A stretch of 64,000 nt of DNA, from positions 186,001 to 250,000 of the forward strand of contig CACXKA010000001.1 in assembly GCA_902768125.1 (NCBI GenBank), in the 5' to 3' direction. The position numbers were made by a program, and so were the translations under genes. Below, one piece after another: positions 14,218 to 52,804 of the stretch. The notes under the pieces are model-generated. The model was given only the letters and a program-made list of their open reading frames with translations, was not told where the DNA came from and did not search any database. Each line of letters opens with the position of its first letter. Within the stretch, counting starts at the first letter, position 1. This DNA comes from an uncultured Bacteroidales bacterium. Its GTDB lineage: Bacteria > Bacteroidota > Bacteroidia > Bacteroidales > Bacteroidaceae.

Positions 14218-15243
14218 ATGAAACAGCGTAATCATGCTTTTGACCTCCTGTGCGGACTCTGCATCCTCCGCATGATCCTACTGCACGTGATGGGCATGTG
14301 TGGCTATAGGGGCGAGTTCTGGTTCACAAAGGTGATGGCGTGGTCGTTCTTCTTCATGTCCTTCTTCTTCTTCAAGGCGGGTTACTTCAACAAAGGCATC
14401 TCCACCCCCACGTGGCCCTACCTGAAAGACCGTGTCAAGCGGTTGCTGGTACCTTATGTCACTTGGGGCATCATTGGCAGCATTATTTTCTTCGGATTTC
14501 TGCTGATATTCCCCGACAACTTCCAGAAATACTACAAGATTCTGCGTTGGTCACACCTGTGGGAAGACAGCCACGTATGGGGCAATCCTCCCTTGTGGTT
14601 CCTCTTCTCCTTCTTCATGTCGTATGTGCTGGTGCATTTCCTCAATAAAGTGAAATACCTGCGCTGGGTGGCTGTTGTTTTCCCTTTCATCAGTTATTAC
14701 TTGTGGACACAGCACAATCCCTTGTGGATGAGCCTCGACAACGTGTTTGCAGGTGTGTTCTTCTTCTATCTGGGCAGGGGATGGCGCTGGTTGCAGACTC
14801 GTGTGCCAAAAGGCTGGCTTATCTTCCTGAGCCTGTTGCTCATAGCCGAGTTCGTCGTAGGCAACCGCTTATGGCATGGGGAATATGACATGAGTCTCAA
14901 CAAATTCGTACAAAACCCTTGGGGAGCAGGCATCAATACCCTCTGTGCTTTGGTGGGCATTTCAGGACTGCTGTTGGCTTTACCACTGAAACGAGTGCCC
15001 GTTATAGGTTTCATCGGAGAACATTCGATGGTCTATTTTGTGGCGCACTACCCTCTTCTCTTCCTCTATGCCTTCACCCATCTGGTGTTCCATCATTCCG
15101 TCGCCCACCATTGGGAAGACGTCATTCTCATGATGCTCTTTGTGCTTATCACCTGTGCTTGGCTCACCCCTTATGTGGAGAAAGTTCCGTGGTTGTCAGG
15201 TCGATATCAAAAAAAACTTTCAACTCCCAACTCTAAACTCTAA
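14218..15243 (+). CDS. Acyltransferase-3 family membrane protein (copy 1 of a tandem pair)
   Basis: A 341-residue polytopic membrane protein of the acyltransferase-3 (OatA/NodX-type) family, which O-acetylates or O-acylates glycans. It has about ten hydrophobic segments, the N-terminal catalytic-type His in MILLHVMG (about residue 23) and an R in the KDRVKRLLVPY block. It is closely similar along its length to the next gene, so the two are a tandem duplication. The conserved part ends at VEKVPWLSGR; the remaining tail (KLSTPNSKL) is array-encoded. Confidence 0.85.
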   Translation: MKQRNHAFDLLCGLCILRMILLHVMGMCGYRGEFWFTKVMAWSFFFMSFFFFKAGYFNKGISTPTWPYLKDRVKRLLVPYVTWGIIGSIIFFGFLLIFPDNFQKYYKILRWSHLWEDSHVWGNPPLWFLFSFFMSYVLVHFLNKVKYLRWVAVVFPFISYYLWTQHNPLWMSLDNVFAGVFFFYLGRGWRWLQTRVPKGWLIFLSLLLIAEFVVGNRLWHGEYDMSLNKFVQNPWGAGINTLCALVGISGLLLALPLKRVPVIGFIGEHSMVYFVAHYPLLFLYAFTHLVFHHSVAHHWEDVILMMLFVLITCAWLTPYVEKVPWLSGRYQKKLSTPNSKL

Positions 15244-15245
15244 AC
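15218..15245 (+). repeat. Heptad array at the junction of the acyltransferase pair (4 units)
   Basis: Units TTTCAAC, TCCCAAC, TCTAAAC, TCTAAAC. The array encodes the C-terminus and stop of copy 1. It is followed by a 7-nt spacer (TTTTCAC) and then the -7 box of copy 2. Confidence 0.8.
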
Positions 15246-15252
15246 TTTTCAC

Positions 15253-15260
15253 TACCTTTG
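15253..15260 (+). promoter_or_regulatory. -7 box for the second acyltransferase (TACCTTTG)
   Basis: Exact TAnnTTTG match ending only 5 nt before the ATG at 15266, so transcription would be expected to begin at or next to the start codon (leaderless mRNA). Confidence 0.65.
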
Positions 15261-15265
15261 CAGCG

Positions 15266-16318
15266 ATGAAGGAACGTAACCATACTTTTGATTTTTTGTG
15301 TGGCATCTGTATCATCCGCATGATACTGCTTCACATCATCACTTTCTGTGGTCACAAAGACGACGACTGGTGGGCAGAGGTGATGGGATGGTCCTTCTTC
15401 TTCATGTGCTTCTTTTTCTTTAAGGCAGGTTACTTCAACAAGACGGTGTCGGGCGACACGGGAGCATACATCAAGGACAAAGCAAAACGGTTGCTCATCC
15501 CTTATGTGGCATGGGGTCTCATCGGCTTTGCAGTTTATGCGTTCTATCTCCCTTTCGAAATCAACCGCTACGGACATCCTATTGAACCGATGGAGTGGAG
15601 TCACCTGTGGAAGACCAGTGCCGTATGGGGCAATGAACCGATGTGGTTCCTCTTCTCCTTCTTCTCCTCCTATGTGCTGGTGCATTTCATCAAGAAAATC
15701 CATATTGTCAAGCCTATCTCCGTATTCCAGACGGTCATCATTCTCATCTGTCCCTTCCTCAGCTATTGGATGTGGAAACTGGAGAATCCGTTGCCAATGA
15801 GCCTGAGCAACGTGTTCATGGGCGTGTTCTTCTTCAACATGGGACGCACTTGGCGATGGCTGATTGAGCGGATGGGACGCCACTTCACCCTCGTGGTATC
15901 CTCCTTGATGATTGTGGCATTTATCGTGTTGAACATCGTGTGGCACGGTGAGTATATCATGCATTCCAACTATTTCAAGGGGAATGAGTTGGCAGCCTTT
16001 GTCAACACCGTCATCATCCTTTTGGGACTTTCTGGTTTCTTGCTGAAATTGCCATTGGGTCGGGTGCCTATCATCAACTACATCGGTCAGCACTCTATGG
16101 TCTATTTCGTGGTGCACTACCCCATCCTCCAGTTCTACCGATTCACCCACATCATATTCGGACATAGCATCTACGGCAAGGGACATTGGGATGACATCAT
16201 CGTCCTCATCTTCTTTGTCTTTGCCATCTCCACTTGGCTGGTACCCTACGTAGAGAAAGTCCCCTGGCTCTCAGGACGCTGGAAAAAACCTCAAACCTCA
16301 AACCTCAAACCTCAATGA
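15266..16318 (+). CDS. Acyltransferase-3 family membrane protein (copy 2 of a tandem pair)
   Basis: A 350-residue polytopic membrane protein, paralogue of the preceding gene (shared blocks: ILLHI, FFFFKAGYFNK, KRLLIPYVAWG, MWFLFSFF, VEKVPWLSGR). The start MKERNHTF matches the start of copy 1; the longer upstream frame runs through the array and promoter. The last residues (PQTSNLKPQ) are encoded by a heptad array at the same relative place as in copy 1, but with a different unit. Its TGA overlaps the ATG of the next gene. Predicted role: O-acylation of a surface glycan. Confidence 0.85.
   Translation: MKERNHTFDFLCGICIIRMILLHIITFCGHKDDDWWAEVMGWSFFFMCFFFFKAGYFNKTVSGDTGAYIKDKAKRLLIPYVAWGLIGFAVYAFYLPFEINRYGHPIEPMEWSHLWKTSAVWGNEPMWFLFSFFSSYVLVHFIKKIHIVKPISVFQTVIILICPFLSYWMWKLENPLPMSLSNVFMGVFFFNMGRTWRWLIERMGRHFTLVVSSLMIVAFIVLNIVWHGEYIMHSNYFKGNELAAFVNTVIILLGLSGFLLKLPLGRVPIINYIGQHSMVYFVVHYPILQFYRFTHIIFGHSIYGKGHWDDIIVLIFFVFAISTWLVPYVEKVPWLSGRWKKPQTSNLKPQ
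16284..16311 (+). repeat. Heptad array before the GT14-like gene (TCAAACC)
   Basis: Unit AAAAACC followed by three exact TCAAACC units, then TCA and the ATG at 16315. It encodes the tail of the acyltransferase and supplies the ATGA overlap between the genes. Confidence 0.85.
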
Positions 16319-17223
16319 GCATCGCCTACCTCATATCAGCTCACACCGATCCTCTTCAGCTCAAGAGGCTCATTGATGCCCTGCACCCAGACGCGCAGTT
16401 CTTCGTGCATGTGGACAAGAAGTCTGATATGAGTGCCTTTGCGTCTATCCTCCAGCGAGAGAACGTACATTTCGTGGAGAATCGCATTGACGTGATTTGG
16501 GGCACCATTCGGCAGGTGGAAGACCAGATGTCGCTCATCAAGGCGGTGCTGGATGATCCAACGGAATTCGACCGCATCTTCTTCCTGTCAGGATTGGACT
16601 ACCCGCTGTGGAGCAACGAGCATATCACCACTTGGCTGGAAGAACATCCCGATCAAGAATTCATCGCAGGCTACTGCATGGACACCGACGAACTTCCTGC
16701 TGACCAACAGCTACTATATCAAGTGCCACGACCTTTCTTCCATCTGAATGGTCTCAGCCGTCGATGGAACGAACGACTCCGCGTCTTGTGCCGCAAGATG
16801 AAGAAATGGACGGGAGTTCGAAAACCCCTCTCCTTCATGGTGGACGGGGAACGCTGGCAGCTCTATAAGGGTGCCGATTGGTGGTGCGTGTCGCAAGGAC
16901 TCCTCGCCCACATCTACAACGTCTATACCCAGAAGTCCGAAGTTCGAGACTACTTCGCCGATTCCTTCGCACCCTCTGAAACATTGCCGCAGACTATTGC
17001 CTTCAACAGTCCTCAATGGGCATCGAAGTGCATCCTCCACAAGGGAGAATACCCAGGGCTCACCCGACTCACGCCACTCCATTGCATCGTCTATGATCCC
17101 GTCATCAAGGTGATGGACGAGAACGACTACGACATGCTCCTGACAAGTGGCAAGATGTTTGCCCGAAAATTCGTTAGTGGAAAAAGTGACCAACTCATTC
17201 AATTACTCCATGGAAGAAACTAA
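16315..17223 (+). CDS. GT14-like (core-2/I-branching type) glycosyltransferase
   Basis: A 302-residue protein resembling bacterial members of the core-2/I-branching beta-N-acetylglucosaminyltransferase family (GT14): AYLISAHTDPLQL at the N-terminus, FFVHVDKKSD near residue 30, and FFLSGLDYPLW near residue 88. No membrane segment is seen, so it probably acts on the cytoplasmic side. The start is the ATG in the ATGA overlap with the preceding acyltransferase; the longer frame would begin inside that gene. The next acyltransferase overlaps its end by 14 nt. Acceptor and donor sugars are unknown. Confidence 0.8.
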   Translation: MSIAYLISAHTDPLQLKRLIDALHPDAQFFVHVDKKSDMSAFASILQRENVHFVENRIDVIWGTIRQVEDQMSLIKAVLDDPTEFDRIFFLSGLDYPLWSNEHITTWLEEHPDQEFIAGYCMDTDELPADQQLLYQVPRPFFHLNGLSRRWNERLRVLCRKMKKWTGVRKPLSFMVDGERWQLYKGADWWCVSQGLLAHIYNVYTQKSEVRDYFADSFAPSETLPQTIAFNSPQWASKCILHKGEYPGLTRLTPLHCIVYDPVIKVMDENDYDMLLTSGKMFARKFVSGKSDQLIQLLHGRN

Positions 17224-18274
17224 AACCCAAAGATTACAATGGCTCGATGCCATGCGTGGCTTCACCATGATTCTCGTCGTTGCCTACCACGTTGCGCAGT
17301 CGGGATTTATGGAGTCGGAGAAGATATCCGCCTCCCTTCCCTTCCTCGTACTCTTCCGCATGCCCCTGTTCTTCTTCGTCAGCGGGTTTTTGGCATATAA
17401 GGCAAACTGGCTCTGGACACCCCAAAGCTTTGCCTCCCTCACTTGGAAGAAAATCAAGGTGCAAGTCCTGCCCACACTTGTCTTCCTCTGTGTGTTCATC
17501 GTGTTGCGCACCTCCTACACCTTCGACGTAGGTTTCATGCGTGCCATGAAGACACCCACCAAGGACGGCTACTGGTTCACGTGGGTACTCCTTCAGATGT
17601 TCCTTATCTACTACGTGGTGGCTGCCCTCTTCCAACGCTTCGGCAAACGCACCGAGCACACCGCCATCATCAGCCTGTGGGTCATCAGTCTGGGTGCCTA
17701 CGTATCCCTCTATCTTCCCCACACCTTGGGCAAATGGTACAAGACCGACTTCATGATGTACAGTTCCTTCTACGAGACCATGAAGTTCATGCATTTCTTC
17801 TTGCTCGGCAACATCGTCCACCGCTTCTGGCCAAGTGTCCAGCGGCTTTTCGATGCCAAGGGCTTCTTCCTCATCACTGTAGTGCTCGCTTACCTCTGCT
17901 GTGCCGACATCTTCAGGTGGCACTTCATCAAGCACGAGTGGACCAACATACCCAAGACCCTCGCCATGTACACCCTCATGCTCATCGTCGTCATGTACTT
18001 CCGCCACCACCAAGACCGCTTCACCCAACAGACGTGGATTGGGCGTGGACTCCAGTACGTCGGCACCCGCACCCTCGATGTCTATCTCCTTCATTTTCTC
18101 CTTCTGCCCAAGCTCCCCGAAGTGGGCAAGTGTCTCAATGACCACCACCCCAACTTCGTCATCGACATCGTCCTCTCCGTCGGCATGGCTCTCATCATCA
18201 TCGCCTTCTGCCTCCTCATCTCCGAAATCCTCCGCATAAGTCCCTTCCTCAAGAAGTACCTATTCGGGCGCTAA
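17210..18274 (+). CDS. Acyltransferase-3 family membrane protein
   Basis: A 354-residue polytopic membrane protein beginning MEETKTQRLQWLDAMRG, the usual acyltransferase-3 opening (LDAMRG, then AYHVAQSG with the conserved His). About ten hydrophobic helices follow. It is distinct from the tandem pair upstream and closer to standard OatA-type proteins. It overlaps the GT14-like gene by 14 nt. Its TAA stop lies inside the first unit of a heptad array. Predicted to modify the same surface glycan as its neighbours. Confidence 0.85.
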   Translation: MEETKTQRLQWLDAMRGFTMILVVAYHVAQSGFMESEKISASLPFLVLFRMPLFFFVSGFLAYKANWLWTPQSFASLTWKKIKVQVLPTLVFLCVFIVLRTSYTFDVGFMRAMKTPTKDGYWFTWVLLQMFLIYYVVAALFQRFGKRTEHTAIISLWVISLGAYVSLYLPHTLGKWYKTDFMMYSSFYETMKFMHFFLLGNIVHRFWPSVQRLFDAKGFFLITVVLAYLCCADIFRWHFIKHEWTNIPKTLAMYTLMLIVVMYFRHHQDRFTQQTWIGRGLQYVGTRTLDVYLLHFLLLPKLPEVGKCLNDHHPNFVIDIVLSVGMALIIIAFCLLISEILRISPFLKKYLFGR

Positions 18275-18298
18275 ACCTCAATTCTCAAACCTCAAACC
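18271..18298 (+). repeat. Heptad array between acyltransferase and GT2-like gene (4 units)
   Basis: Units CTAAACC, TCAATTC, TCAAACC, TCAAACC, then ACC and ATG. The first unit contains the stop codon of the upstream gene. Four units plus 3 nt before ATG is the same geometry as at 16284 and 36095. Confidence 0.85.
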
Positions 18299-18301
18299 AC
18301 C

Positions 18302-19318
18302 ATGCATCCTTCCAACATAGACGTCTCCGTCCTCATCCTCTTCTTCAACCGTCCCGACTTCCTCCAGAAAGTCTTCGACGAAGTCAAGAAAGCACGTCCT
18401 GCCCGCCTCTTCCTCTACCAAGACGGACCGCGCGGACCGCAAGACATGGAACGCATCCTGCAATGCCGTCAGGTCGTAGCCGACATCGACTGGGAATGCG
18501 AGGTGCACCAGCTCTACCAAGAGAAGAACTACGGGTGCGACCCCTCCGAATACCTCTCCCAGAAATGGGCATTCTCCATCACCGACCGTTGCATCGTACT
18601 CGAAGACGATGATGTGCCTTCCCAGTCTTTCTTTCCCTTCTGCAAAGAACTGCTCGACCGTTACGCCGACGATGAGCGCATCGGCATGATTGCAGGCTTC
18701 AACAGCGATGAAGTCACACCCGACGTGCCCGACGACTATTTCTTCACCACCGTCTTCAGCATCTGGGGATGGGCAAGCTGGCGTCGCGTCATCGACCAGT
18801 GGGACAGCCATTACAGCTTCCTCGACGACAAGTACGCCATGCAGCAAGTCAACGACCTGTGGAAACTGCGCCGTTACCGTCCTCACCTGCTCGATATGTG
18901 TCGGCAGCATCGCGACTCAGGCAAGGAATACTACGAGACCATCTTCCTCATGAGTCTCGTGCTCAACCATCAACTCGCCATCATGCCCACACGCAACCTC
19001 GTCAACAACCTTGGTGCCACCCCCGACAGCACCCACTATGCTGCCAACCTCAACACCATCCCTGCCCGTTTGCGTCGTATGTACACCATGAAGCGTCACG
19101 ACCTCCAGTTCCCGTTGCGCCATCCTGCCCACGTCATTGAGCACGTTGCTTTCAAGGAACACGTCTATCGCACCAACGCCTGGGGGCATCCCTGGCTCAA
19201 GATTGGGCGTTCTTTCGAGGAACTCTTCAACAACCTCCGATACGGCAATTTCAAACAAATTGGTCAAGCCATCCGCAATCGCTGGCACATCCTGACAGGA
19301 CAAAACAAATACCATTAA
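18302..19318 (+). CDS. Glycosyltransferase, GT-A fold (GT2-like)
   Basis: A 338-residue cytosolic protein starting VSVLILFFNRPDFLQKVFDEV, with a nucleotide-sugar site QDGPRG and the DxD-like EDDDVPS (about residue 101). The central part contains SIWGWASWRRVI, seen in a family of Bacteroides and Prevotella surface-polysaccharide transferases. It is the last gene of the block that starts with LicD. About 150 nt of noncoding sequence follow. Sugar specificity unknown. Confidence 0.8.
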   Translation: MHPSNIDVSVLILFFNRPDFLQKVFDEVKKARPARLFLYQDGPRGPQDMERILQCRQVVADIDWECEVHQLYQEKNYGCDPSEYLSQKWAFSITDRCIVLEDDDVPSQSFFPFCKELLDRYADDERIGMIAGFNSDEVTPDVPDDYFFTTVFSIWGWASWRRVIDQWDSHYSFLDDKYAMQQVNDLWKLRRYRPHLLDMCRQHRDSGKEYYETIFLMSLVLNHQLAIMPTRNLVNNLGATPDSTHYAANLNTIPARLRRMYTMKRHDLQFPLRHPAHVIEHVAFKEHVYRTNAWGHPWLKIGRSFEELFNNLRYGNFKQIGQAIRNRWHILTGQNKYH

Positions 19319-19404
19319 AGGTTAAAGGGGAGGCTCCAAAACGGGGTCTTTCCTTGTTATATGTAAAAATTGCTGAAAAATTTGGTTGTGTTGTGTTTTT
19401 GATA

Positions 19405-19412
19405 TACCTTTG
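19405..19412 (+). promoter_or_regulatory. Promoter of the PAP2 phosphatase gene
   Basis: -7 box TACCTTTG with TTTG at 19381-19384, 20 bp upstream: a canonical Bacteroidales pair. Confidence 0.8.
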
Positions 19413-19469
19413 CCGTCGACAATCGAAAATGAGAACATGAACATATTATTCACTTAAATCGAAAAAAGT

Positions 19470-20309
19470 ATGAAAAGAATGGCATTTTTGGCTTTAGCCA
19501 TTGCTTCCTTCACAAGCCTTTGGGCTCAGAGTAAATTTCCTGATGGTTTTCTCGCTGAAGAGAATCGTCCTGATGCATATGTTTGGCTTCCAGAACCTCC
19601 CAAACTGACTGGTGCTGACTTCACTTACGACTTCTACTACTACCAGTGGGGACGCCTCAAGCGCGATGAAGGTGGCGTAGGAGAGATGGCACTGAAAGAT
19701 GAGAGTGCCCCGCTGAATGAAGTGTTTGGGGAGACATTGGACGTTCCATTGGACGAGGTTCATATGCCTGAAACCTTGTTGTTGCTTCAGCGTGCCGTCA
19801 CCGACGCTAACGACGTCAACAAGAAAGTGAAAGATAGATACGAGCGAAAAAGACCTTTCGCCCAGTTTAATGAACCATCGCTGAAGCCAGAGGAGGATGA
19901 CGTGGAAGCCAATACATTCAGTTATCCTTCTGGTCACAGTTCCAGGGGGTGGATGAGTGCTCTGATACTTGCCACTGTGGATCCTGAAAAAGCCGAAGAA
20001 TTGTTTCTCCGTGCTCGGTTATATGCTTTGAACCGTGTCATCTGCGGCCACCATTGGAAGACTGACATTGATGCCTCAATGATGCTTTCTGCGGGTCTCT
20101 TCGCCACGATCGTATGCACGGAGGAATATCAGGCTCAGCTGGTCAAGGCACGTGCAGAATATAACGCCATCAAGAGCGGAACGGATGCAAAAGCGCCAAA
20201 GGTGGAACACCGCACGTCTGGTCCAGCGTATGCCATTGATGGCACGCAAGCCACGGAAGCCACTCATGGCATCGTGATTCAGAATGGTCAGAAGACCATC
20301 TGGAAATAG
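19470..20309 (+). CDS. Secreted PAP2-family acid phosphatase (class A type)
   Basis: A 279-residue periplasmic phosphatase with a signal peptide (about residues 1-20, ending SLWAQ). The PAP2 signature is complete: KDRYERKRP (about 123-131), PSGHSSRG (about 154-161) and a third motif with GHHWKTDID. The order and spacing are as in bacterial class A non-specific acid phosphatases. It has its own canonical promoter. It may dephosphorylate lipid or organic phosphates in the periplasm; the substrate is not predictable. Confidence 0.88.
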   Translation: MKRMAFLALAIASFTSLWAQSKFPDGFLAEENRPDAYVWLPEPPKLTGADFTYDFYYYQWGRLKRDEGGVGEMALKDESAPLNEVFGETLDVPLDEVHMPETLLLLQRAVTDANDVNKKVKDRYERKRPFAQFNEPSLKPEEDDVEANTFSYPSGHSSRGWMSALILATVDPEKAEELFLRARLYALNRVICGHHWKTDIDASMMLSAGLFATIVCTEEYQAQLVKARAEYNAIKSGTDAKAPKVEHRTSGPAYAIDGTQATEATHGIVIQNGQKTIWK

Positions 20310-20393
20310 AAGGAGAACTTTCCACGAGCGTCCGTTTCGTTGAAAGTTTCCCGCGTTCTGTTGAATCTTTTTTCGTATCTGATTCCAATATCG

Positions 20394-20401
20394 TAATTTT
20401 G
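20394..20401 (+). promoter_or_regulatory. Possible -7 box (TAATTTTG) for the sensor kinase operon
   Basis: Fits TAnnTTTG 69 nt before the kinase start; no -33 element at the right distance. Confidence 0.4.
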
Positions 20402-20470
20402 TAACGAAATCATCCACGACTGCGTGGGAGATGGAAAGGCAATAATACCCTGTTTCTTACGTTATTATCT

Positions 20471-21616: not shown

Positions 21617-21645
21617 TAGCTTTAGAAGTTAAGAGGTTAATAGAT

Positions 21646-22359
21646 ATGATTCGTTGTCTTGCCATTGATGATGAGCCATTGGCTCTCCAACAACTTGTTG
21701 CTTACATCCATAAGGTTCCGTTTCTGGAACTTGCCGCCCAATGCCAGAGTGCGTTGGAGGCTCGTTCGTTTTTGGAGCACGACACCGTCGATGTCCTCTT
21801 CTGTGACATCAACATGCCCGATCTCAACGGCATGGAGTTCGTAAAGTCGCTCGCCGTTCCCCCACTCGTGGTGTTCACCACCGCCTATTCGGAATATGCC
21901 GTCGAGGGCTTCAAGGTAAATGCCGTCGATTACCTGCTGAAACCTTTTGGACTGCAGGATTTCCAAAAGGCTGCCATGAGGGTGAAGGAGCGATTGAGCG
22001 AACGGATGAGTGAACGAGTTGAAGGAGGTGACGACACCATCTTCCTGAAGACCGACTACCGCATCGTGAAGGTCAAGCTTTCTGACATCCGATATATCGA
22101 GGGGATGAGCGAATACTTGAAGGTTTGGGTGGACAACGAACCTAAACCCATCATCACCCTCCTGTCCATGAAAAAAATGGAGGAACGGCTTCCGGATTGC
22201 TTCATGCGCATCCACCGTTCCTACATCATTCATCTTGATAAAATTCAGGAGGTCAACAAGAATCGAGTCATCATGGACGCCGACACTTACCTGCCCATTG
22301 GCGACCTCTACAAGGAAGCCTTCCAGCATTATCTGGACTCTAAGTTCCTGGGTAAGTGA
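21646..22359 (+). CDS. LytTR-family response regulator
   Basis: A 237-residue DNA-binding regulator. The receiver domain has DDEPLA, phospho-Asp in FCDINMPDLNG (about residue 54) and Lys in LLKPFG; the LytTR domain runs from about residue 130 (KTDYRIVKVKLSDIRYIEG) to the end. It pairs with the upstream kinase. Its TGA is directly followed, with no spacer, by the stop codon of the convergent carbohydrate-binding gene, so any terminator must lie in coding sequence. Confidence 0.93.
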   Translation: MIRCLAIDDEPLALQQLVAYIHKVPFLELAAQCQSALEARSFLEHDTVDVLFCDINMPDLNGMEFVKSLAVPPLVVFTTAYSEYAVEGFKVNAVDYLLKPFGLQDFQKAAMRVKERLSERMSERVEGGDDTIFLKTDYRIVKVKLSDIRYIEGMSEYLKVWVDNEPKPIITLLSMKKMEERLPDCFMRIHRSYIIHLDKIQEVNKNRVIMDADTYLPIGDLYKEAFQHYLDSKFLGK

Positions 22360-39949: not shown

Positions 39950-39968
39950 GCATGTTTGTATTTGGTTG

Positions 39969-39976
39969 CAAAGATA
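39969..39976 (-). promoter_or_regulatory. -7 box of hflX (TATCTTTG)
   Basis: Exact minus-strand match 19 nt before the hflX ATG, preceded by an 8-nt spacer and four octad units. Confidence 0.75.
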
Positions 39977-39984
39977 GAAAAAAG

Positions 39985-40016
39985 AATTGAAGAATTGAAG
40001 AATTGAAGGATTGAAG
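39985..40016 (-). repeat. Octad array upstream of the hflX -7 box (4 units)
   Basis: On the minus strand three CTTCAATT units and one CTTCAATC, then an 8-nt spacer (CTTTTTTC) and the -7 box. No recognisable -33 element. Confidence 0.85.
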
Positions 40017-40044
40017 TTATTATATAACCTGTTTTTTCATCCCA

Positions 40045-40084
40045 TATTTCAATTTTTCAATCTTTCAATTCTCCAATTCTCCAA
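40045..40084 (+). repeat. Octad array upstream of the GT4 gene -7 box (5 units)
   Basis: Units TATTTCAA, TTTTTCAA, TCTTTCAA, TTCTCCAA, TTCTCCAA, then a 7-nt spacer and the -7 box. Mirrors the hflX array on the other side of the divergent intergenic region. Confidence 0.8.
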
Positions 40085-40091
40085 TTTTCCG

Positions 40092-40099
40092 TACCTTTG
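40092..40099 (+). promoter_or_regulatory. -7 box of the GT4 gene (TACCTTTG)
   Basis: Exact match 15 nt before the ATG at 40115. Confidence 0.75.
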
Positions 40100-40114
40100 C
40101 ACCCGATTTTAAGA

Positions 40115-43938: not shown

Positions 43939-43946
43939 TACCTTTG
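43939..43946 (+). promoter_or_regulatory. Promoter of the large secreted protein gene
   Basis: -7 box TACCTTTG with TTTG at 43915-43918, 20 bp upstream. About 150 nt of leader follow, including a short hairpin (near 43962-43986) and an AT-rich stretch, before the ATG at 44100. Confidence 0.8.
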
Positions 43947-44099
43947 CCACCTAAAATAACGCCTTCTCTCTTGCGTGAGGGAGGCAACAGAGACTAACTA
44001 AAAGCGACTTCAACCTATTTTATACATATTATATAATAATAAGGGAACGAGTCAGAAGTTTAACTAATCTTTATATTATTAATTAATTACTAACTCATT

Positions 44100-47000: not shown

Positions 47001-47789
47001 GCTTACCTGTCTCTCACAAATGAAGAACTGGCAGCAATAATTGAAGAGATTGAGGAGATGACCAAAGACATGCAGACTGCTATTGTAGAGAGCAAGGCTG
47101 CTTCCGCTACTGACGATGATCCATTCGATGCAACAGACTTCATCGTGAACCCAGACATGGGTACAGGTAACGCTGACGGTTGGACTGTTATGCCTCTGGG
47201 TCAGAACAATGGCTATCAGAACAACCAAACTTACACGAACGGTGATATTTCTCTCAACCAGTTCATTGAGTGCTGGAGAAATGGCGCAGTATTGACTGAT
47301 GGTACTATCGAGCAGACTACTGCCGCAACTCTCCCAGCTGGTACTTACACTCTTAGCGCAGACATCAATGCTAAGTGGCAGCCAGATGCTACTGTAGCCA
47401 TCAAGGGACTCTTCCTCTTTGTCAGCGATGCTGCAAACAACACCAACTCTGTGCTGCTTGACACTCAGGATGCTTCTCCAAAGCACTTCGAGGTAACATT
47501 CAAGTTGGAGGAAGCATCTCCAATTACTCTTGGTGTGATGGCTAAGGAGACTAACGCTAACTGGTTGGCAGCAGACAACTTCAAACTCATGTACTATGGT
47601 ACAGCCAGCACGAAGGAAGCTTCTGGTGATGCTGGTGACGCCTCTGGCATTGAGAATGTAACAGAACAGAGTGCTAAGGTTGTCGTAGCTATCTACAACG
47701 CTGCTGGCGCTCAGATCAACGCTCTCCAGCCAGGTATCAACATCGTGAAGTACGCTGATGGTTCTACGAGGAAGATCTTCAAGAACTAA
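44100..47789 (+). CDS. Large exported modular protein with T9SS-like tail
   Basis: A 1229-residue secreted protein of unknown function. Signal peptide 1-20 (SALAQ). It contains at least three related beta-sandwich modules, each opening with an I-V-N-x-x-F/M motif followed by a Trp (near residues 302 NSTFDVVGDFTGW, 660 NPGFEEAGGKGW, and 1018 NPDMGTGNADGW) and ending in DNFKL/DDFQL; these look like galactose-binding-type jelly rolls. Helical FIVAR-like segments rich in Ala, Glu and Lys lie between them. The end (VAIYNAAGAQINALQPGINIV) is a sorting-tail-like domain. Codon use favours T- and A-ending codons compared with neighbours, perhaps reflecting high expression. Strong promoter and terminator flank it. 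Confidence 0.75.
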   Translation: MKKSLLMLVSLTLTTMSALAQWVEPIPESSAPSFDGTPQFLYNVGAKGFFCGGNDYNTRASISRTFGDSIYFQPVEGADGSYYFRCYPSVAKKGNFFFVSANNWDASWVDAPNDGKFHETLAETGAYPGTDKWGLTSIGNNIYKIYNTTTEVDVPEVNPETGQGYYGIAQIFNGGEPDSNTRTYFYDPSRTRTVKNEAQEEITLPVYEGKFYDEWYFVSKETYEEWLPKKEIYNAAVVLGKDLDEAAVNCPGLDVSVIQAVYDNPASTAEELKKASEDLMELIVNYKLKDASAETPVDFSEKIVNSTFDVVGDFTGWSKGFGAGGDTSTCAEVWRSAFDVYQDIKGLPEGVYMVACNGYSRHNDNHDQDYAQWKSGAVSETKIYMKSETHGQFFTPVMFVSQGGSIDQQIGTKGQTAHAYEENGEKHTLYCPNSMAAANDYFHDGTNRYRNEAYGPLAAGETLRIGVSNTNSMYWSIFDDFQLFYLGNGADAYKKWAESVKANYNVSFDGEVYYGAPDKKNYEEILATLSDASDKEAVSAAILNVDAAVEAVTTSKNNYATYVKALANAQKWLDENVGDDDSFYKLSDYLEAENAEDVAAWEFPNGPAKVIIPDYLVGGYEGILSGKDIETETTYLQGLLAEATKNALADGSDLTSMIVNPGFEEAGGKGWKLDTSKGGTNALTNWHGGNDNNYCAEAFQQNFDIYQVIEGVKDGLYEVSVQAFYRTGANQAAYEAYKNDPEMKGDAKVYPEVYINEFSSKIRNVMEIQFKDKELDENNTNTYHPDGTEIYTLDGMTSASNAFSLEDPARNFTMSAYGVVQDGKIRIGLRKLEGPTNAAQWTLWDNFKLTYRAKNPEVAAKVLASKSEELAELLEASADFMTDPVLKNTQDAYNESKKTDLNDAAKYDVLIETNDALLAAQENIKNVEKYKEVMVAFDQAYTDLETEDPDNALWTEIDKLSDELEGDAYLSLTNEELAAIIEEIEEMTKDMQTAIVESKAASATDDDPFDATDFIVNPDMGTGNADGWTVMPLGQNNGYQNNQTYTNGDISLNQFIECWRNGAVLTDGTIEQTTAATLPAGTYTLSADINAKWQPDATVAIKGLFLFVSDAANNTNSVLLDTQDASPKHFEVTFKLEEASPITLGVMAKETNANWLAADNFKLMYYGTASTKEASGDAGDASGIENVTEQSAKVVVAIYNAAGAQINALQPGINIVKYADGSTRKIFKN

Positions 47790-47825
47790 ACCAACAGATC
47801 GTTAATCACTAACACTCGATAAGAA

Positions 47826-47860
47826 GGTGGCGGGTTCCATACAGGAGCCCGCCACTTTTG
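47826..47860 (+). terminator. Intrinsic terminator after the large secreted protein
   Basis: GC-rich 12-bp stem (47827-47838 with 47844-47855) with a 5-nt loop, followed by TTTT. Confidence 0.85.
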
Positions 47861-47894
47861 CCCTCTTTATTTTGGTGGAACAAAAGAAAAGATG

Positions 47895-47902
47895 TACTTT
47901 TG
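47895..47902 (+). promoter_or_regulatory. Promoter of prmC (TACTTTTG)
   Basis: -7 box with TTTG at 47871-47874, 20 bp upstream. It ends 4 nt before the prmC ATG at 47907, so the transcript is predicted to be leaderless. Confidence 0.75.
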
Positions 47903-47906
47903 CAGC

Positions 47907-48785
47907 ATGAATAATATCTACAGGGAAATCAAGAAGATTCTGACAGATGGCAACCTTTCAGAAGGGGAAGCAAAAGCAATTGCTCTACTGCTCCTAGAGA
48001 GGGTTGCAGGATTGCCGACGGCAAAAGCATTGATTGCCGACGGCAAAGACCTGCTTTGCCGTCGGCAAACCTTGCTTGAGCTGGCGGCTCGTGTTGCAAA
48101 GGGTGAGCCCGTCCAATATGTGTTGGGCGAAGCCGACTTCTGCGGCTTAACACTGAAAGTGGAACCAGGCGTGTTGATTCCTCGTCCTGAAACAGAGGAA
48201 TTAGTGAACTGGATTGTCGAAACGCTTCACACCAAACAACCAACTCTAAACTGTCAACTGTCAACTGTCAACTGTCAACTCTTAGACATTGGCACAGGCA
48301 GCGGATGTATCTCCGTCGCTTTGTCCAAGAAGTTAAAAAATGCAGAAGTGGAAGCGTGGGATGTGAGCGATGTAGCATTAAGAGTGACAAAAGATAATGC
48401 AACCAAGAATCATGTGAAGGTGAAAGTGAAGAAGGTGGATATATTGTCTGACGACATCTTTGGCTTTGGCAATTATGATGTCATCGTGAGTAATCCTCCC
48501 TATATCTGTAAGGAAGAAAAGGAGGAAATGGAAAAGAATGTGTTAGAACATGAACCCAGTTTGGCACTGTTCGTGCCCAATGAAGACCCATTACTTTTCT
48601 ACAGAAAGATAGGACTCCTAGCTTTGCAATTACTGAATAATGGAGGACTCTTGTTTTTTGAGATCAACAGAAGGTTTGGCAAGGAAGTCGTAACAATGTT
48701 GCAAAAATTGGGATATGAGGCGGTGGAACTGAGGCAAGACCTATTTGGCAACGACCGTATGGTGAAAGCAATAAAGCCACAATAA
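47907..48785 (+). CDS. prmC: PrmC, release-factor glutamine methyltransferase, carrying two repeat inserts
   Basis: SAM-dependent enzyme that methylates the Gln of the GGQ motif in peptide-chain release factors. The 292-residue protein has the helical N-terminal domain with VQYVLGEADFCGL and VLIPRPETEELV, the SAM motif LDIGTGSGCISVAL, and the catalytic NPPY in VSNPPYI. Two unusual segments: residues ~36-55 are encoded by three 13-bp palindromes at 22-bp spacing, and residues ~113-125 (TLNCQLSTVNCQL) by a heptad array in the linker between domains. Neither breaks the frame. The start MNNIYREIKK is chosen over an in-frame ATG overlapping the -7 box. Confidence 0.93.
   Translation: MNNIYREIKKILTDGNLSEGEAKAIALLLLERVAGLPTAKALIADGKDLLCRRQTLLELAARVAKGEPVQYVLGEADFCGLTLKVEPGVLIPRPETEELVNWIVETLHTKQPTLNCQLSTVNCQLLDIGTGSGCISVALSKKLKNAEVEAWDVSDVALRVTKDNATKNHVKVKVKKVDILSDDIFGFGNYDVIVSNPPYICKEEKEEMEKNVLEHEPSLALFVPNEDPLLFYRKIGLLALQLLNNGGLLFFEINRRFGKEVVTMLQKLGYEAVELRQDLFGNDRMVKAIKPQ
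48012..48068. repeat. Three 13-bp palindromes at 22-bp spacing inside prmC
   Basis: TTGCCGACGGCAA at 48012-48024 and 48034-48046, and TTGCCGTCGGCAA at 48056-48068. Each is palindromic around the central base; starts are exactly 22 bp apart. They are translated in different frames. Confidence 0.9.
48245..48279 (+). repeat. Heptad array inside prmC (5 units)
   Basis: TCTAAAC followed by four exact TGTCAAC units (TCAACTG in the common phase), coding sense, in the linker before the SAM motif. Confidence 0.9.
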
Positions 48786-48801
48786 ATTCGTTATAGATAG
48801 T

Positions 48802-50838
48802 ATGAAAAAGTTCCTATTCTATATATTATTTTGTCTTTTAAGCATCGGCAGCATCTATGCTGACGATTGGGAAATCTATGCGTCCTATCACAATGCCACC
48901 CAAGCCGTGAAGACGGATTCGCGCATCTTCGTGCTTGCCAATGGCGACCTTTACAGTTACGACGCGGAAGACCAAACGGTAGAACTGTACGACAAGACAA
49001 ATGTGTTGAGCGACTTTGGCATTGCCCATATTGCCTATTCAGCTGCCACGAAGAAATTGGTTGCTATCTATGAAAATGGCAACATTGACTTGATTGGGAT
49101 GGACAACACCCGTTGGAATATTCCCGACTTGAAGATGAAGAACCTGGATGACAAGACCATCAACGAACTGAAGGTGGTGGGAAAAGAGGCATTCATTAGC
49201 CTCAACTCGGGCCTGGCATTGTTGAATCTGACAGAAGGCTATTTCGTGGACTTCTACACATTCGATGGTAAAGTGACCAACGCAACCGCCTCTGGTAATA
49301 AAATCTATGCAAAGACCACTACAGACGTCTTAGAGGGTAATCGTACCCTCAACCTCTTGGATGCAAGCAGTTGGAAAAAGGTAGCTGACAACACGGTCAC
49401 GTTTGGAAAGACCGAAGCAGAGAAAAAAGAAGAGGCGACCTTATTAGAGAAAGTGAAGAACATAGTACCCGACTCCCCTATCAGGAATTGGTCCTATAAA
49501 CTAAACATGGTGGGGCATCGCCTCTTAGTGGCAGGTGGTAACTTCTACTATCCAGAGATGGATTATGAAGGTACAGCGATGAAGTATGAGAAAGGCAAAT
49601 GGAGTGCCTTCGATGAAACAGCCGCCATTGCCTTGGTGGGCGAAAAAGCCTATCGCAATGTGACAGACATCGTACAAGATCCCAATGACTCAGAGCACCA
49701 TTGGTTGGGTACCAAACGAAGCGGCATCTACGAATTCAAGAACTACAAAATGGTGAATCACTATACTTTCGACAATTCACCCTTGGAAAGCATCCTGCCC
49801 AACGACAAAAATGCCGGCCGATATGTGCGTGTCACAGCACTTAATTATGACAGAGAGGGAAACTTGTGGATGTGCAATGACGAATGCGACACCATCGTAC
49901 GCATTCTGAAAAAAGATGGTAGCTGGAGAAGCTACTACTATAGCGAGGCAGTCAAGAAACCCACATGGGACCACACCTATTTTGACAAACGCGGGTGGGC
50001 ATGGATCAATTCTCGAAGAACTTCCAACAATGGAGAATCAGGCATACTCATCATCAATACCAACGGCACCATCGACAAGCAATCCGATGACCAGCACCGC
50101 TACCTCTCCACTTTCTACAATCAAAATGGAGAAAGCTATACACCCGACCTGTATTACTGTACAATAGAGGATCTGAATGGAGACATGTGGATAGGTTGCA
50201 CAAAGGGCGTCTTCATGACTACTACACCAGAAGATATCTTCAAAAGCAGTTTCACTTTCACACAACCTATCGTACCCAGAAACGATGGCTCAGGATTAGG
50301 TGATTATCTGCTGAATGGCATACCTGTCAAGTGCATTGCTATCGATGGTGGCAACCGCAAGTGGGTTGGGACACTCAATAATGGTGTCTATCTGCTCAGT
50401 GCAAATGGAATGGAAACCATTGAGCATTTTACCACAGGGAACAGTCCACTCATCAGTGACGAGATCAACGACATCGCTATTGATGGGGAGACGGGAGAAG
50501 TGTTCATTGCCACCAGTTTAGGACTTTGTTCCTATCATGGAGATGCCACCGACCCAGCTACTTCTATGAGTTCGAATAACCTGAAAGTATATCCAAACCC
50601 CGTTCGTCCTGAATATCAGGGAAAGGTGCACATTACAGGACTGATGTACAACTCAAACGTAAAGATTGTGAGCGCTGCAGGCAAACTGGTTGCAGAAGGA
50701 ACGAGTGTGGGAGGTGAATTCTCTTGGGACTGCTGCACACAAAGCGGCAGACGAGTAGGTTCTGGCATCTACTACGCACTCTGCACAGACGAAGATGGCA
50801 AGAAAGGAGCTGTTGCCAAAATCCTCATTATTCATTAA
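48802..50838 (+). CDS. porZ: PorZ-like T9SS beta-propeller protein
   Basis: A 678-residue exported protein with a signal peptide (1-20), then two seven-bladed-propeller-like regions built of two-component-regulator-propeller repeats (for example DREGNLWMCND, LNGDMWIGCTKGVF, GGNRKWVGTLNNGVYLL). It ends with a Por-type sorting domain (LKVYPNPVRPEYQGKVHI ... GSGIYYALC). The opening DWEIYASYHNATQAVKTDSR resembles PorZ of the type IX secretion system, an outer-surface component of the attachment complex. The symbol rests on architecture and opening sequence; a different propeller protein with a sorting tail is possible. It lies 16 nt after prmC. Confidence 0.7.
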   Translation: MKKFLFYILFCLLSIGSIYADDWEIYASYHNATQAVKTDSRIFVLANGDLYSYDAEDQTVELYDKTNVLSDFGIAHIAYSAATKKLVAIYENGNIDLIGMDNTRWNIPDLKMKNLDDKTINELKVVGKEAFISLNSGLALLNLTEGYFVDFYTFDGKVTNATASGNKIYAKTTTDVLEGNRTLNLLDASSWKKVADNTVTFGKTEAEKKEEATLLEKVKNIVPDSPIRNWSYKLNMVGHRLLVAGGNFYYPEMDYEGTAMKYEKGKWSAFDETAAIALVGEKAYRNVTDIVQDPNDSEHHWLGTKRSGIYEFKNYKMVNHYTFDNSPLESILPNDKNAGRYVRVTALNYDREGNLWMCNDECDTIVRILKKDGSWRSYYYSEAVKKPTWDHTYFDKRGWAWINSRRTSNNGESGILIINTNGTIDKQSDDQHRYLSTFYNQNGESYTPDLYYCTIEDLNGDMWIGCTKGVFMTTTPEDIFKSSFTFTQPIVPRNDGSGLGDYLLNGIPVKCIAIDGGNRKWVGTLNNGVYLLSANGMETIEHFTTGNSPLISDEINDIAIDGETGEVFIATSLGLCSYHGDATDPATSMSSNNLKVYPNPVRPEYQGKVHITGLMYNSNVKIVSAAGKLVAEGTSVGGEFSWDCCTQSGRRVGSGIYYALCTDEDGKKGAVAKILIIH

Positions 50839-50862
50839 CGATAACCATAACTGTCAACCATC

Positions 50863-51756
50863 ATGAAGCTCTCCGTCATCATCCCTGTCTATTGTGTGGA
50901 AGACACCCTTGACCGATGCGTGAAGAGCATTATTGGTCAGTCATATCATGATTTGGAGGTCATTCTGGTAGACGACGGTTCACCCGACCATTGTCCTGAA
51001 CTTTGTGACGATTGGGCAAAGCGAGATACAAGAATTCGAGTCATCCACAAGGAGCATGGAGGACTGAGTGACGCTCGAAATGTGGGCATTGATGCAGCAG
51101 CAGGTGAATGGTTGGCATTTATAGATTCAGATGACGAATTGGATGAGGGCACGCTAGAGAAGGTAATGCCAATGATTGACAACTATGACATCATCGAATT
51201 TCCATACTATCGAGCATACGGCAGTAAGCAACAGCAACTTTTCACCTTTGAGCCGAAAGTCTATGACAACATGGAAGAGTATTGGTTGAAAGGTCGTGCT
51301 TATGACCACACTTATGCATGGAACAAAATCTATCGAAAAAGCCTATTCGACCATATACGTTTCCCACAAGGGGAAGTGTTCGAAGACATCCATACCTTGC
51401 CTTCACTGCTGAAACAAGCCCGCTGCATTGCTACAACAGACCAGGGGCTCTACTACTATCATTGGAATAACAAGGGAATCACAGCCACCGCTGATGGGCA
51501 AGCATTAGAAAGCTTGCTGAAAGCCAATTTGAAGGTGAAATGGATGGATGACCTTTACTATATGCGTATATTAAACATACAAATCAGTGTGTACCAACGA
51601 TTGCGAAAAGAGATACTACTTCCCTACCGACCTGTTCAAATTAAGACAAAAGGCTTAACGGTCACAGAAAGAATAAAGGCTGTTATGTTAAGGGTGTTAG
51701 GAGTGAAAGGTGTTTGTCAACTTTTCTACACATTCCACAAAATCGCTCTTGTATAA
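50863..51756 (+). CDS. GT2-type glycosyltransferase
   Basis: A 297-residue GT-A transferase: LSVIIPVYCVEDTLDRCVKSI, LVDDGSPDHCPELCDDWA, SDARNVGIDAA and DxD-like FIDSDDELDEG (about residues 88-98). The C-terminal half has a FEDIHTLP segment as in CPS-type transferases. The leader before the ATG contains a weak heptad-like stretch. Its last 31 nt overlap the 3' end of the convergent GT2 gene, with both stops inside the other gene. Confidence 0.88.
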   Translation: MKLSVIIPVYCVEDTLDRCVKSIIGQSYHDLEVILVDDGSPDHCPELCDDWAKRDTRIRVIHKEHGGLSDARNVGIDAAAGEWLAFIDSDDELDEGTLEKVMPMIDNYDIIEFPYYRAYGSKQQQLFTFEPKVYDNMEEYWLKGRAYDHTYAWNKIYRKSLFDHIRFPQGEVFEDIHTLPSLLKQARCIATTDQGLYYYHWNNKGITATADGQALESLLKANLKVKWMDDLYYMRILNIQISVYQRLRKEILLPYRPVQIKTKGLTVTERIKAVMLRVLGVKGVCQLFYTFHKIALV

Positions 51757-52667
51757 ATATTGAATAGGATGTATTTCCATTCATTGTGCCAACGAAGAGG
51801 GAAATAGCCAAGCTTACGCATAGCACCCACTATCTCACCCACGAATTTCTTGGAATGGTGCTGACGAAGCATCACACGAAGCATGTCAACAGCCAAATAA
51901 TCCAACTTATACTGCATACATTCACGTAGTTCCGGATCCGATTGTGCCAACTCCTCCAACGAGCAAAGAATCTGTACCAAATCGCGAAGTTTTCTTTGCT
52001 GCTTCTCCGCATTCACAGTTGTCGTGATACTCTCTTTCCTTCGAATACGTTCATACCAATCCACTTGATACGCCAAGAAAGAATCAGCCTGTATGAATGC
52101 TCTTGGCGTAAAGTCTTCATCCTCATGATAGAGCCCCTTGGTAAAAAAAAGATTCTTACTCTCCAGAAACTCCCTTCTGAACAGATAAGCAACCACACAA
52201 GGCATCAAATTACGCCCTTTCATAAAAGTGCGAGCTGGCTGATATATTTTATTATAAATAGGTGTGTAGCGTCGGAATGGTACGCGCTTCCCTGCATTAT
52301 CCATTTGCAAGACATTCACTCCCACGATATCTATATCTTGCTTCTCCAACACATCCAGAGGGGGGCGAGCCGCAAATAAATGGTCATCAGCATCCACAAA
52401 ACAAATGTATTTCCCTTTGGCTTGACACATTCCTGCATTACGTGCCGCACTTAATCCTTGATTCTCTTGAGTGAATACCAACAAATCTGCATGAAACTTT
52501 CTATAAGCCTCTAGCAACTCCGCCGTACCATCCGTGGAGCCATCGTTGACAACGATGACTTCAAAACCTCGCCCACGCATATCAAGACGATAGATGCTGT
52601 CCAAACATTCTTTCAAGTAAGGACCAGCATTGTAGGCAGGAATGATGAAGGACAAGAGAATACTCAT
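51726..52667 (-). CDS. GT2-type glycosyltransferase
   Basis: A 313-residue GT-A transferase: LLSFIIPAYNAGPYLKECLDSI, IVVNDGSTDGTAELLEAY, SAARNAGMCQAKG and the DxD in FVDADDHLF. It starts at the ATG at 52667; the longer frame would translate the promoter and array. The C-terminus ends in a helical segment. Divergent from the GT2 gene at 52824, with matching array-plus-promoter layout. Acceptor unknown; likely the same surface polysaccharide as its neighbours. Confidence 0.88.
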   Translation of the reverse strand: MSILLSFIIPAYNAGPYLKECLDSIYRLDMRGRGFEVIVVNDGSTDGTAELLEAYRKFHADLLVFTQENQGLSAARNAGMCQAKGKYICFVDADDHLFAARPPLDVLEKQDIDIVGVNVLQMDNAGKRVPFRRYTPIYNKIYQPARTFMKGRNLMPCVVAYLFRREFLESKNLFFTKGLYHEDEDFTPRAFIQADSFLAYQVDWYERIRRKESITTTVNAEKQQRKLRDLVQILCSLEELAQSDPELRECMQYKLDYLAVDMLRVMLRQHHSKKFVGEIVGAMRKLGYFPLRWHNEWKYILFNIYTRAILWNV

Positions 52668-52691
52668 AGATGTTCTTAAATAATGTCTTGG

Positions 52692-52699
52692 CAAAGGTA
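52692..52699 (-). promoter_or_regulatory. -7 box of the minus-strand GT2 gene (TACCTTTG)
   Basis: Exact match 24 nt before the start, preceded by a 7-nt spacer and four heptads. Confidence 0.75.
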
Positions 52700-52706
52700 G
52701 TACTTT

Positions 52707-52734
52707 TAATTGATAATTGGCAATTGACGATTGA
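52707..52734 (-). repeat. Heptad array upstream of the minus-strand GT2 promoter (4 units)
   Basis: Minus-strand units TCAATCG, TCAATTG, CCAATTA, TCAATTA, then AAAGTAC and the -7 box. A TTG lies exactly 21 bp (three units) from the box and could act as the -33 element. Confidence 0.85.
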
Positions 52735-52761
52735 TATTTCATCATGAGAACCACAAAATTG

Positions 52762-52789
52762 TCAATTGTCAATTGTCAATTGTCAATTA
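52762..52789 (+). repeat. Heptad array upstream of the plus-strand GT2 promoter (4 units)
   Basis: Three exact TCAATTG units and one TCAATTA, then TTTCTCG and the -7 box; same geometry as the minus-strand array across the intergenic region, including a TTG 21 bp from the box. Confidence 0.9.
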
Positions 52790-52796
52790 TTTCTCG

Positions 52797-52804
52797 TATC
52801 TTTG
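52797..52804 (+). promoter_or_regulatory. -7 box of the plus-strand GT2 gene (TATCTTTG)
   Basis: Exact match 19 nt before the ATG at 52824. Confidence 0.75.

Follow-up and report, generated by a model that had tools for sequence, protein, structure and literature searches.

Docked repeat arrays in the window

The window, a stretch of 64,000 nt analysed over its full length, belongs to the genome of an uncultured Bacteroidales bacterium, a rumen Prevotellaceae/Bacteroidaceae MAG. Short tandem arrays lie directly upstream of the -7 boxes of five predicted promoters in it, those of an acyltransferase-like gene and of the divergent gene pairs hflX/GT4 and GT2/GT2. The features were located as follows.

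15221..15246, plus strand: heptad array of CAACTCC/CAACTCT/AAACTCT units, overlapping the stop codon of the upstream gene
15253..15260, plus strand: -7 box TACCTTTG of the acyltransferase-like gene (start 15266)
39967..40101: divergent cassette between hflX (minus) and GT4 (plus), in the order TGCAAAGATA, array, core, inverted array, TACCTTTGCA, with 115 nt between the boxes
39969..39976, minus strand: -7 box TATCTTTG of hflX
39982..40016, minus strand: octad array CTTCAATT, docked to the hflX box
40017..40046: core separating the hflX and GT4 arrays
40047..40090, plus strand: octad array TTTCAATT/CTCCAATT, docked to the GT4 box
40092..40099, plus strand: -7 box TACCTTTG of the GT4 glycosyltransferase gene
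52692..52699, minus strand: -7 box TACCTTTG of a GT2 glycosyltransferase gene
52707..52736, minus strand: degenerate heptad array TATCAAT, CGTCAAT, TGCCAAT, TATCAAT
52757..52788, plus strand: heptad array GTCAATT, 4.6 units
52797..52804, plus strand: -7 box TATCTTTG of the second divergent GT2 gene, with 97 nt between the two GT2 boxes

All five boxes of the original prediction were present, each with a 7- or 8-nt array just upstream, and the docking of arrays to the -7 box was thereby confirmed. The sequence TAnnTTTG was found at all five sites, which are among the 17 TANCTTTGC boxes counted in the window, where 1.5 were expected. The spacer had been thought to equal one unit, but gaps of 6, 5, 1 and 8 nt were measured at the four scored sites; the array of the minus-strand box at 52692 fell below the scoring cut-off as the array nearest to its own box, its CAAT units being evident by eye. 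What held was the fixed placement, since TC occupies positions -14/-13 from the box start at each of the five sites. Because the array ends are ill defined, this description by register was preferred and the one by spacer length was dropped. In both TCAATTG arrays the TTG starts at -24 and therefore stands 21 nt from the box, as had been claimed, and no TTG was found between -45 and -3 at the other three promoters. At least six undocked arrays were also observed in the window (for example at 4025, 11028, 11840, 16286, 36097 and 48242), the majority within predicted reading frames.

Placement, register and composition of the arrays

A sample of 861 kb of the host genome (31% of the assembly), made up of the window and 40 stretches picked without regard to their content, contained 19 arrays of 7- or 8-nt units ending 1–15 nt upstream of TA[ACT]CTTTG. 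Spacer lengths in this sample were not evenly spread: all gaps fell between 1 and 15 nt, none between 16 and 55 nt, and the peak was at exactly 6 nt (9 of the 19 array-box pairs, against 0.04 expected per position). In the same sample, the nearest array in the reverse arrangement, downstream of the box, lay at 20 nt, and five permuted boxes gave one match at 0–12 nt where 0.8 were expected. Only 16 of the 134 strong boxes in the sample were docked, and 118 had no array, so that the mean lag-7 autocorrelation over all strong boxes was barely raised (0.333 versus 0.28–0.31 at neighbouring lags).

Docking also exceeded chance by far in loci from named genomes, 11 of them close and 69 more distant. 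In 45 genomes of the genus, 49 of 54 boxes had their nearest perfect AAACTCT unit at a distance of 6 nt. Across the genus, the gap was 7, 14 or 21 nt at 78 of 92 boxes for TTCCTAAT, and 7–8 nt at 97 of 106 sites for TTTTCAC, for which the allowed range was 6–10; these counts were made by eye, on all sites for TTTTCAC and on the nearest perfect unit per distinct box for the other two words. Genus-wide searches for a unit with a box gave no match with the reversed patterns. At the sites of all three words, the sequence of the gap varied and its length was constant.

The primary-sigma promoter of Bacteroidetes consists of a -33 TTTG and a -7 TAnnTTTG (PMC7366714), and variants of the -7 element have been described (PMC9723704). 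The docked promoters carry the identical -7 box, but the heptad or octad array occupies the -33 region, at the position of the TTG that the ordinary promoters of the host genome show there. This TTG was mostly missing at array promoters, being found at -24 to -22 in 4 of 33 compared with 128 of 343 others (p = 0.004; pooled over the four genomes with docked boxes and thus excluding G008, which had none and showed TTG at 4 of 28); in the window, only the two TCAATTG arrays had it.

The register was common to different unit words. Among 27 heptad families, its maximum statistic was reached in none of 3000 permutations (L001, L005 and L007 were excluded from this and the cassette analyses as overlapping copies). 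When similar units were merged into eight clusters the signal weakened, with T at -14 in six of them (p = 0.012) and p = 0.054 for TC, and at a looser threshold of two mismatches all units chained into one cluster; therefore, copying from one ancestor could explain the register. No TC register was detected in the octad families alone (p = 0.79). The proposal of an alternative upstream element fits these sequence data, namely arrays in the -33 region, a TTG mostly missing and one register across words. The accompanying proposal of a tunable spacer does not, since the array, placed upstream of the -7 box, does not separate two fixed elements.

The majority of arrays lie away from promoters. In five genomes of the genus, 150 of 181 were undocked and their modal length was similar to that of the docked ones, so the arrays are a general feature of these genomes. 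There were 57 tandem arrays with period 7 and 11 with period 8, compared with 0 and 0 in one dinucleotide shuffle. They resemble the long simple sequence repeats with heptanucleotide units of Mrazek 2007 (as cited in PMC4679880), tandem units of 5–11 nt with heptads commonest, scattered in and between genes; tandem units in this size range beyond chance were likewise found here. The difference is that a subset here keeps a fixed distance and register relative to the -7 box, and nothing alike appears in the introduction of PMC4679880. The TAACTGA direct repeats of Beggiatoaceae, Cyanobacteria and some Bacteroidetes (PMC4679880) are also intergenic heptad arrays with a preferred position, but they consist of one word just before start codons, with a proposed role in translation. 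The arrays described here have many words and end before the -7 box, and TAACTGA was absent from the 31 docked arrays and from the 40 commonest unit types of the 150 undocked ones. Docked arrays measured 32 ± 4.6 nt. Array length was considered as proof of a promoter constraint and rejected, because undocked arrays share a similar modal length, with a wider spread.

These observations bear on the possibility that the arrays are neutral filler, produced anywhere by polymerase slippage and, once one lay beside a -7 box, copied with it to other genes by recombination between boxes, in which case docking would reflect common descent and a weak -33 element would be expendable. Slippage with 7 nt as the preferred length has been proposed (Mrazek 2007, as cited in PMC4679880), and the excess of arrays away from promoters, the chaining of all units and the copying of box and array together, demonstrated by the cassette copies described below, all agree with it. 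Nevertheless, gap lengths are constant although gap sequences differ, different words share one register, and it is specifically the -33 TTG that is missing. Docked arrays are also richer in A/T (26% GC versus 34% in undocked arrays), and the commonest undocked words, AAACCTC and AAAGGTT, account for 39 of the 150 undocked arrays and none of the 31 docked ones. We therefore regard this explanation as unlikely, while giving it serious weight.

Less probable still is that the units are operator repeats for regulators or nucleoid proteins, the word perhaps marking a regulon and a change of word rewiring the gene. The repetition of one word at a set distance from the box could be read in this way, as could the genome-specific word sets (TCCTAAT, for instance, is common in G017 and G003 but missing from G000). 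Against it, the words are many and change at housekeeping genes between close species, and single-letter variants occur inside one array.

Orthologous promoters and divergent cassettes

Among the matches listed, the repeat word differed between orthologues of hflX, fba, metG and mutY, and its place persisted. Docked arrays were missing at 36 of 49 hflX loci with a box, 9 of 16 fba, 10 of 16 metG and 8 of 16 mutY loci, figures in which some loci showing coding sequence and no promoter, where the match does not begin at the start codon (L185, L196, L197, L232, L241 and L252, among others), are counted as lacking an array. As many orthologous promoters have none, the array is dispensable at a given gene. 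At the D-2-hydroxyacid dehydrogenase gene, only the host's locus of 20 had both a docked array and, within 250 nt, a TA[ACT]CTTTG box; the others had mostly TAnTTTTG-type or no visible boxes, and this gene therefore tells little about exchange.

At fba, the distance from a conserved motif to the box was 63–64 nt in five genomes and 56 nt in a sixth, an exact one-unit difference and the only one observed. Tandem repeats upstream of promoters tune expression by unit number in other systems, and together with the fba difference this would favour phase-variable contingency promoters, in which slippage alters the number of units. Such tuning, also part of the original prediction, is very improbable here: docked lengths are narrow, the targets include housekeeping genes (hflX, fba, metG, mutY and rnr), and orthologues, with one assembly per species, differ mainly in the word and less in unit number.

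Divergent promoters shared the layout box, array, core, inverted array, box. The boxes were 115–119 nt apart in 18 of 22 two-array cassettes, and both arms carried the same word in 18 of them as well (shuffling gave 6.3 on average and 15 at most); roughly ten of these 22 cassettes are hflX orthologues. Moreover, the hflX/GT4 cassette at 39967..40101 has a 94% copy elsewhere in the genome, between other genes. In one case, rnr, a cassette had been gained exactly between the two boxes, which are separated by 115 nt in the host and by 21 nt in the relatives G006 and G016; comparison of these filled and empty sites showed no target-site duplication. In another, mutY, 170 upstream nucleotides are identical to those of a species in which the DNA around them has 77% identity.

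A MITE with an internal minisatellite is known from Porphyromonas gingivalis, where tandem repeats likewise lie within a small inverted-repeat element of a Bacteroidales species (PMC4596501); here the ends are promoter boxes and the units 7–8 nt. A MITE-like element with outward promoters, the boxes being its terminal and the arrays its subterminal repeats, would agree with the near-constant length, the copies between different genes, the hairpin potential of the cassette as single strand (z = -4.25) and the inverted boxes and arrays (present in all 22 two-array cassettes by construction of the search), but it is highly implausible, given that the ends are ordinary promoter boxes, most of the strong ones lacking an array, that one-sided arrays are common, and that at rnr a 21-nt spacer present in two relatives was replaced between the boxes with no duplication seen.

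A proposed promoter class

Taken together, the results argue, with a probability of roughly 55% in our estimate, that this lineage has a distinct promoter class with the arrays as its modular upstream half, a half in which geometry would count for more than sequence and which would have spread by recombination at the boxes. The sigma factor would read the -7 box TAYCTTTGCA as usual, and between about -7 and -40 some 4.5 A/T-rich heptads or octads would stand in place of the -33 TTG, preferably with T at -14 and often C at -13, and probably take over the contacts of that element. Position, register and composition would matter and the unit word much less, so that words would be replaceable. Divergent pairs would form cassettes of nearly constant length, usually with one word on both arms. 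Recombination with its anchors in the -7 boxes and start regions would copy them from one gene pair or species to another and would spread arrays already docked. We infer that such recombination, and not a transposase, moves the cassettes, and hairpin template switching may keep both arms alike. A bolder formulation, which we hold only tentatively, is that the promoter element consists of periodicity, register and composition and not of sequence: an A/T-rich array in register would replace the -33 element, whole words would be replaced, and the exchangeable cassette (about 116 nt between boxes, or about 11 helical turns) would be jointed at the -7 boxes.

Many promoters in this group of gut bacteria appear to have a short repeat array, always at one position, where the second recognition signal usually sits, its word varying by gene and between close relatives. 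If the arrays do replace the -33 element, a bacterial sigma factor can work with upstream DNA that is defined by geometry and composition rather than by one particular word, and one lineage has come to use such DNA at many promoters. The arrays would then also offer a clear natural example of promoter evolution by module swapping between genes and species, the core box serving as the joint. Because variants with other words and equal geometry are naturally abundant at orthologous genes, reporters could test both points directly.

No publication on arrays docked to Bacteroidetes -7 boxes was found in a literature search with thin coverage of subscription journals. Additionally, in promoter propagation, or horizontal promoter transfer or switching, regulatory segments move between genes and strains without coding sequence. 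The arrays share the movement of a regulatory segment and differ in that the cassette is bounded by the -7 boxes themselves. Such segments were found upstream of different genes, as with the 94% copy, and across species, as at mutY.

Array docking in the window and the host genome

The five array-box sites of the original prediction were confirmed by direct reading, each with a 7- or 8-nt tandem array, a short A/T-rich gap and then TAYCTTTG, the -7 box:

15253 (+), docked array and -7 box
39969 (-), docked array and -7 box
40092 (+), docked array and -7 box
52692 (-), docked array and -7 box
52797 (+), docked array and -7 box

The best family matches of the downstream genes were hflX, one GT4, two GT2 glycosyltransferases and one acyltransferase-like gene, and 17 TANCTTTGC boxes were found in the window (1.5 expected). 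Counting from the box start, TC was present at -14/-13 in 5/5 window promoters, and the TTG previously described in both TCAATTG arrays lies at -24; the other three carry no TTG. TAnnTTTG is placed at -12 to -5 relative to the start in a passage of PMC9723704. The start codon at 15266 is 13 nt after the box start (window 15253-15268), and a relative's mutY locus (L198) is alike; were transcription to start about 12 nt past the box start, both transcripts would be nearly leaderless. Passages of PMC4679880 locate TAACTGA heptads before start codons; the paper also cites work on long simple repeats in which heptanucleotide units are the most frequent and slippage of the polymerase is the proposed cause. 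Among the papers listed by literature searches, none on arrays docked at -7 boxes was seen.

To compare docking with chance, 861 kb of host sequence was examined, made up of the window and 40 stretches picked by position. Arrays of period 7, 8 and 14 numbered 57, 11 and 21 there; a single dinucleotide shuffle yielded 0, 0 and 1. In the spacer-length test asked for in the original prediction, the gaps from array end to TA[ACT]CTTTG were uneven: one case at 1 nt, one at 4, three at 5, nine at 6, one at 8, two at 10 and one each at 13 and 15, the next occurring only at 56 nt, with 0.04 expected per position. In this sample no pair in the reverse arrangement was closer than 20 nt, and five permuted boxes yielded a single match at 0-12 nt (0.8 expected). 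Most of the 80 relatives kept from the HflX search are Bacteroidaceae/Prevotellaceae MAGs of rumen and gut; the nearest is isolate RGIG9696 from yak omasum (99%). Docking was also observed in the regions around hflX of 11 close named genomes (13 pairs, gaps 1-13) and of 69 more distant ones (9 pairs, gaps 2-10).

Spread, register and the -33 element

Pattern scans extended this to 45 genomes of the genus, with boxes counted by eye. AAACTCTAAACT-N{0,30}-TAYCTTTG matched 54 distinct boxes, with a gap of 6 at 49, 7 at two and 5, 14 and 27 at one each. TTCCTAATTCCTAAT-N{0,30} before the box gave 92, with gaps of 7 (59), 14 (13), 21 (6), 9 (9), 8 (2) and 16, 17 and 23 (one each); gaps 14 and 21 keep the register of gap 7, the last units having diverged. 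The TTTTCAC pattern, with gaps of 6-10 allowed, was found in 39/399 genomes and 5/30 genera of the family, and 97 of its 106 sites, counted by eye, had a 7- or 8-nt gap. Reversed control patterns gave 0 matches in all three scans. In 100-kb samples, four further genus genomes contained 4-24 period-7 arrays per 100 kb, and four genomes from other families of the order had none of period 7 or 8. Docked boxes in such samples numbered 2/32 (G006), 10/25 (G017), 2/24 (G002) and 0/28 (G008).

Of the 82 distinct docked promoters collected, 84% have T at -14 and 66% have C at -13; T at -14 was also favoured by boxes without an array in the host sample (58%). TC at -14/-13 occurred in 12/27 heptad families, against 3.0 for randomly drawn phases, and none of 3000 permutations reached the maximum statistic of the heptad families, taken across every position and dinucleotide. 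Octad families alone did not show TC at this position. When units one mismatch apart were merged, the signal in the resulting 8 clusters was weaker (T at -14 in 6, p=0.012; TC in 2, p=0.054). At two mismatches all units chained into a single cluster, and therefore all array units may share a common origin.

A TTG starting at -24 to -22 was found in 57/118 strong boxes without an array but in 2/16 docked ones in the host sample (Fisher p=0.007). With the wider box TA[ACT]CTTTG, pooled over the four genomes having docked boxes, the counts were 128/343 and 4/33, respectively (p=0.0036).

Word turnover and cassette movement

As read from orthologous loci, array position is kept while the unit word varies. 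The docked unit of hflX was CTTCAATT in the host and three relatives' loci (L079, L086, L087), TCCTAAT in L081 and L082, TCCTCAT in L080, TTTTCAC in L083 and L123, TATCAAT in L103 and CATTTGA in L112. That of fba was AAACTCT (G000, G006), TCCTAAT (G013), TCCTAAC (G002), of CTCATAA type (G009) or of CTCTCATCTCTAA type (G003, G017), and fba had no docked array in, for example, G005 and G007. Between the fba box and a conserved motif upstream of it lie 63-64 nt in each of five genomes; in G013 the distance is 56 nt, one heptad shorter. metG and mutY behaved likewise. Where a TA[ACT]CTTTG box precedes the gene, a docked array was present at hflX in 13/49 loci, fba 7/16, metG 6/16, mutY 8/16, rnr 3/9 and a dehydrogenase gene 1/1.

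Between diverging genes the arrays were often paired and inverted around a core. From box pairs 31-160 nt apart, 22 distinct two-array cassettes were collected, about ten at hflX orthologues and the rest at rnr, metG, the dehydrogenase gene, mutY and three unannotated places. In 18/22 the boxes were 115-119 nt apart, whether heptads or octads, and in 18/22 both arms had the same word with at most one mismatch; shuffling gave 6.3 such cassettes on average and 15 at most. The other divergent pair of the window (52692/52797) has 97 nt between boxes and a degenerate left array. By eye, core motifs like ATTCAnnGTGTTTTTT were common to TCCTAAT, TCCTCAT, TCCTAAC and AAACTCT cassettes, other cores differing, and they also occur in a hybrid cassette (L262) with one octad and one heptad arm. 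As single-stranded DNA the window cassette folded better than 200/200 shuffles (z = -4.25), although good folding would likely be expected of any inverted arrays.

Elsewhere in the genome, a 94% copy of the hflX/GT4 window cassette lies between an epimerase-like gene and rnr (RNase R, a name taken from the gene's own sequence rather than a family search). Similarity stops at the right box and, on the left, at a short leader. The pair of boxes at rnr is separated by 21 nt in G006 and G016 (RNase R 99% and 90% identical to the host's) but by 115 in the host, and the host and G006 flanks are 90-100% identical in 60-nt windows. The most probable explanation is that the host lineage acquired the cassette precisely between pre-existing boxes. 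The rnr promoters of L160 and L162 are very compact, with outward-facing -7 boxes 21 nt apart; the host sample has five divergent box pairs spaced 20-29 nt. At mutY, host and G016 have the same 170 nt before the start codon, within 1.9 kb of 77% identity, while G006 has a 29-nt single-array arrangement, though its MutY is 98% identical to the host's. This suggests that the regulatory segment was exchanged by itself.

The evidence best supports a reading of the arrays as a modular upstream half of putative promoters, strict in geometry and free in wording, that would have moved in cassette form through recombination at the boxes. What is mainly in doubt is the source of this geometry, function or copying. 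Function is favoured by different words sharing one register, the constant length but variable sequence of the gap, the depletion of TTG in docked promoters and the docked arrays' own word set: AAACCTC and AAAGGTT made up 39/150 undocked but 0/31 docked arrays, and GC was 34% in undocked and 26% in docked arrays. Caution is called for because 150/181 arrays are undocked, modal lengths of both classes are similar, many orthologues have no array and copying is demonstrated.

Arrays away from promoters

Three TTTTCAC arrays (L043:11783-11872, L046:16014-16103 and L040:17657-17752 (+)) code for the hydrophobic core of what look like signal peptides (FFTFHFSL...), and a lipobox-like ASC accompanies two of these. 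This word would thus double as promoter DNA and protein code. The CAAACCT/GAGGTTT word, never docked among the 31 docked arrays, lies within long reading frames at L029:17014-17109, L013:16734-16777 and window 11028-11061 and 11840-11866, the latter two in one ORF with identical 24 nt before each. Arrays of the TAACCTT/TAACGGT type start at or beside a predicted gene's stop codon (L010:12921, L015:10818, L013:18284, L020:12470, L035:7763), and a (CTAAACC)n array is at the 3' end of another (L031:15849-15899). CTAAACC is the word of plant telomere repeats, a match that is presumably coincidental. Finally, octad arrays CGTACCAG / TGGTACGC form undocked inverted pairs at L009:3751-3773 and L028:16715-17053.
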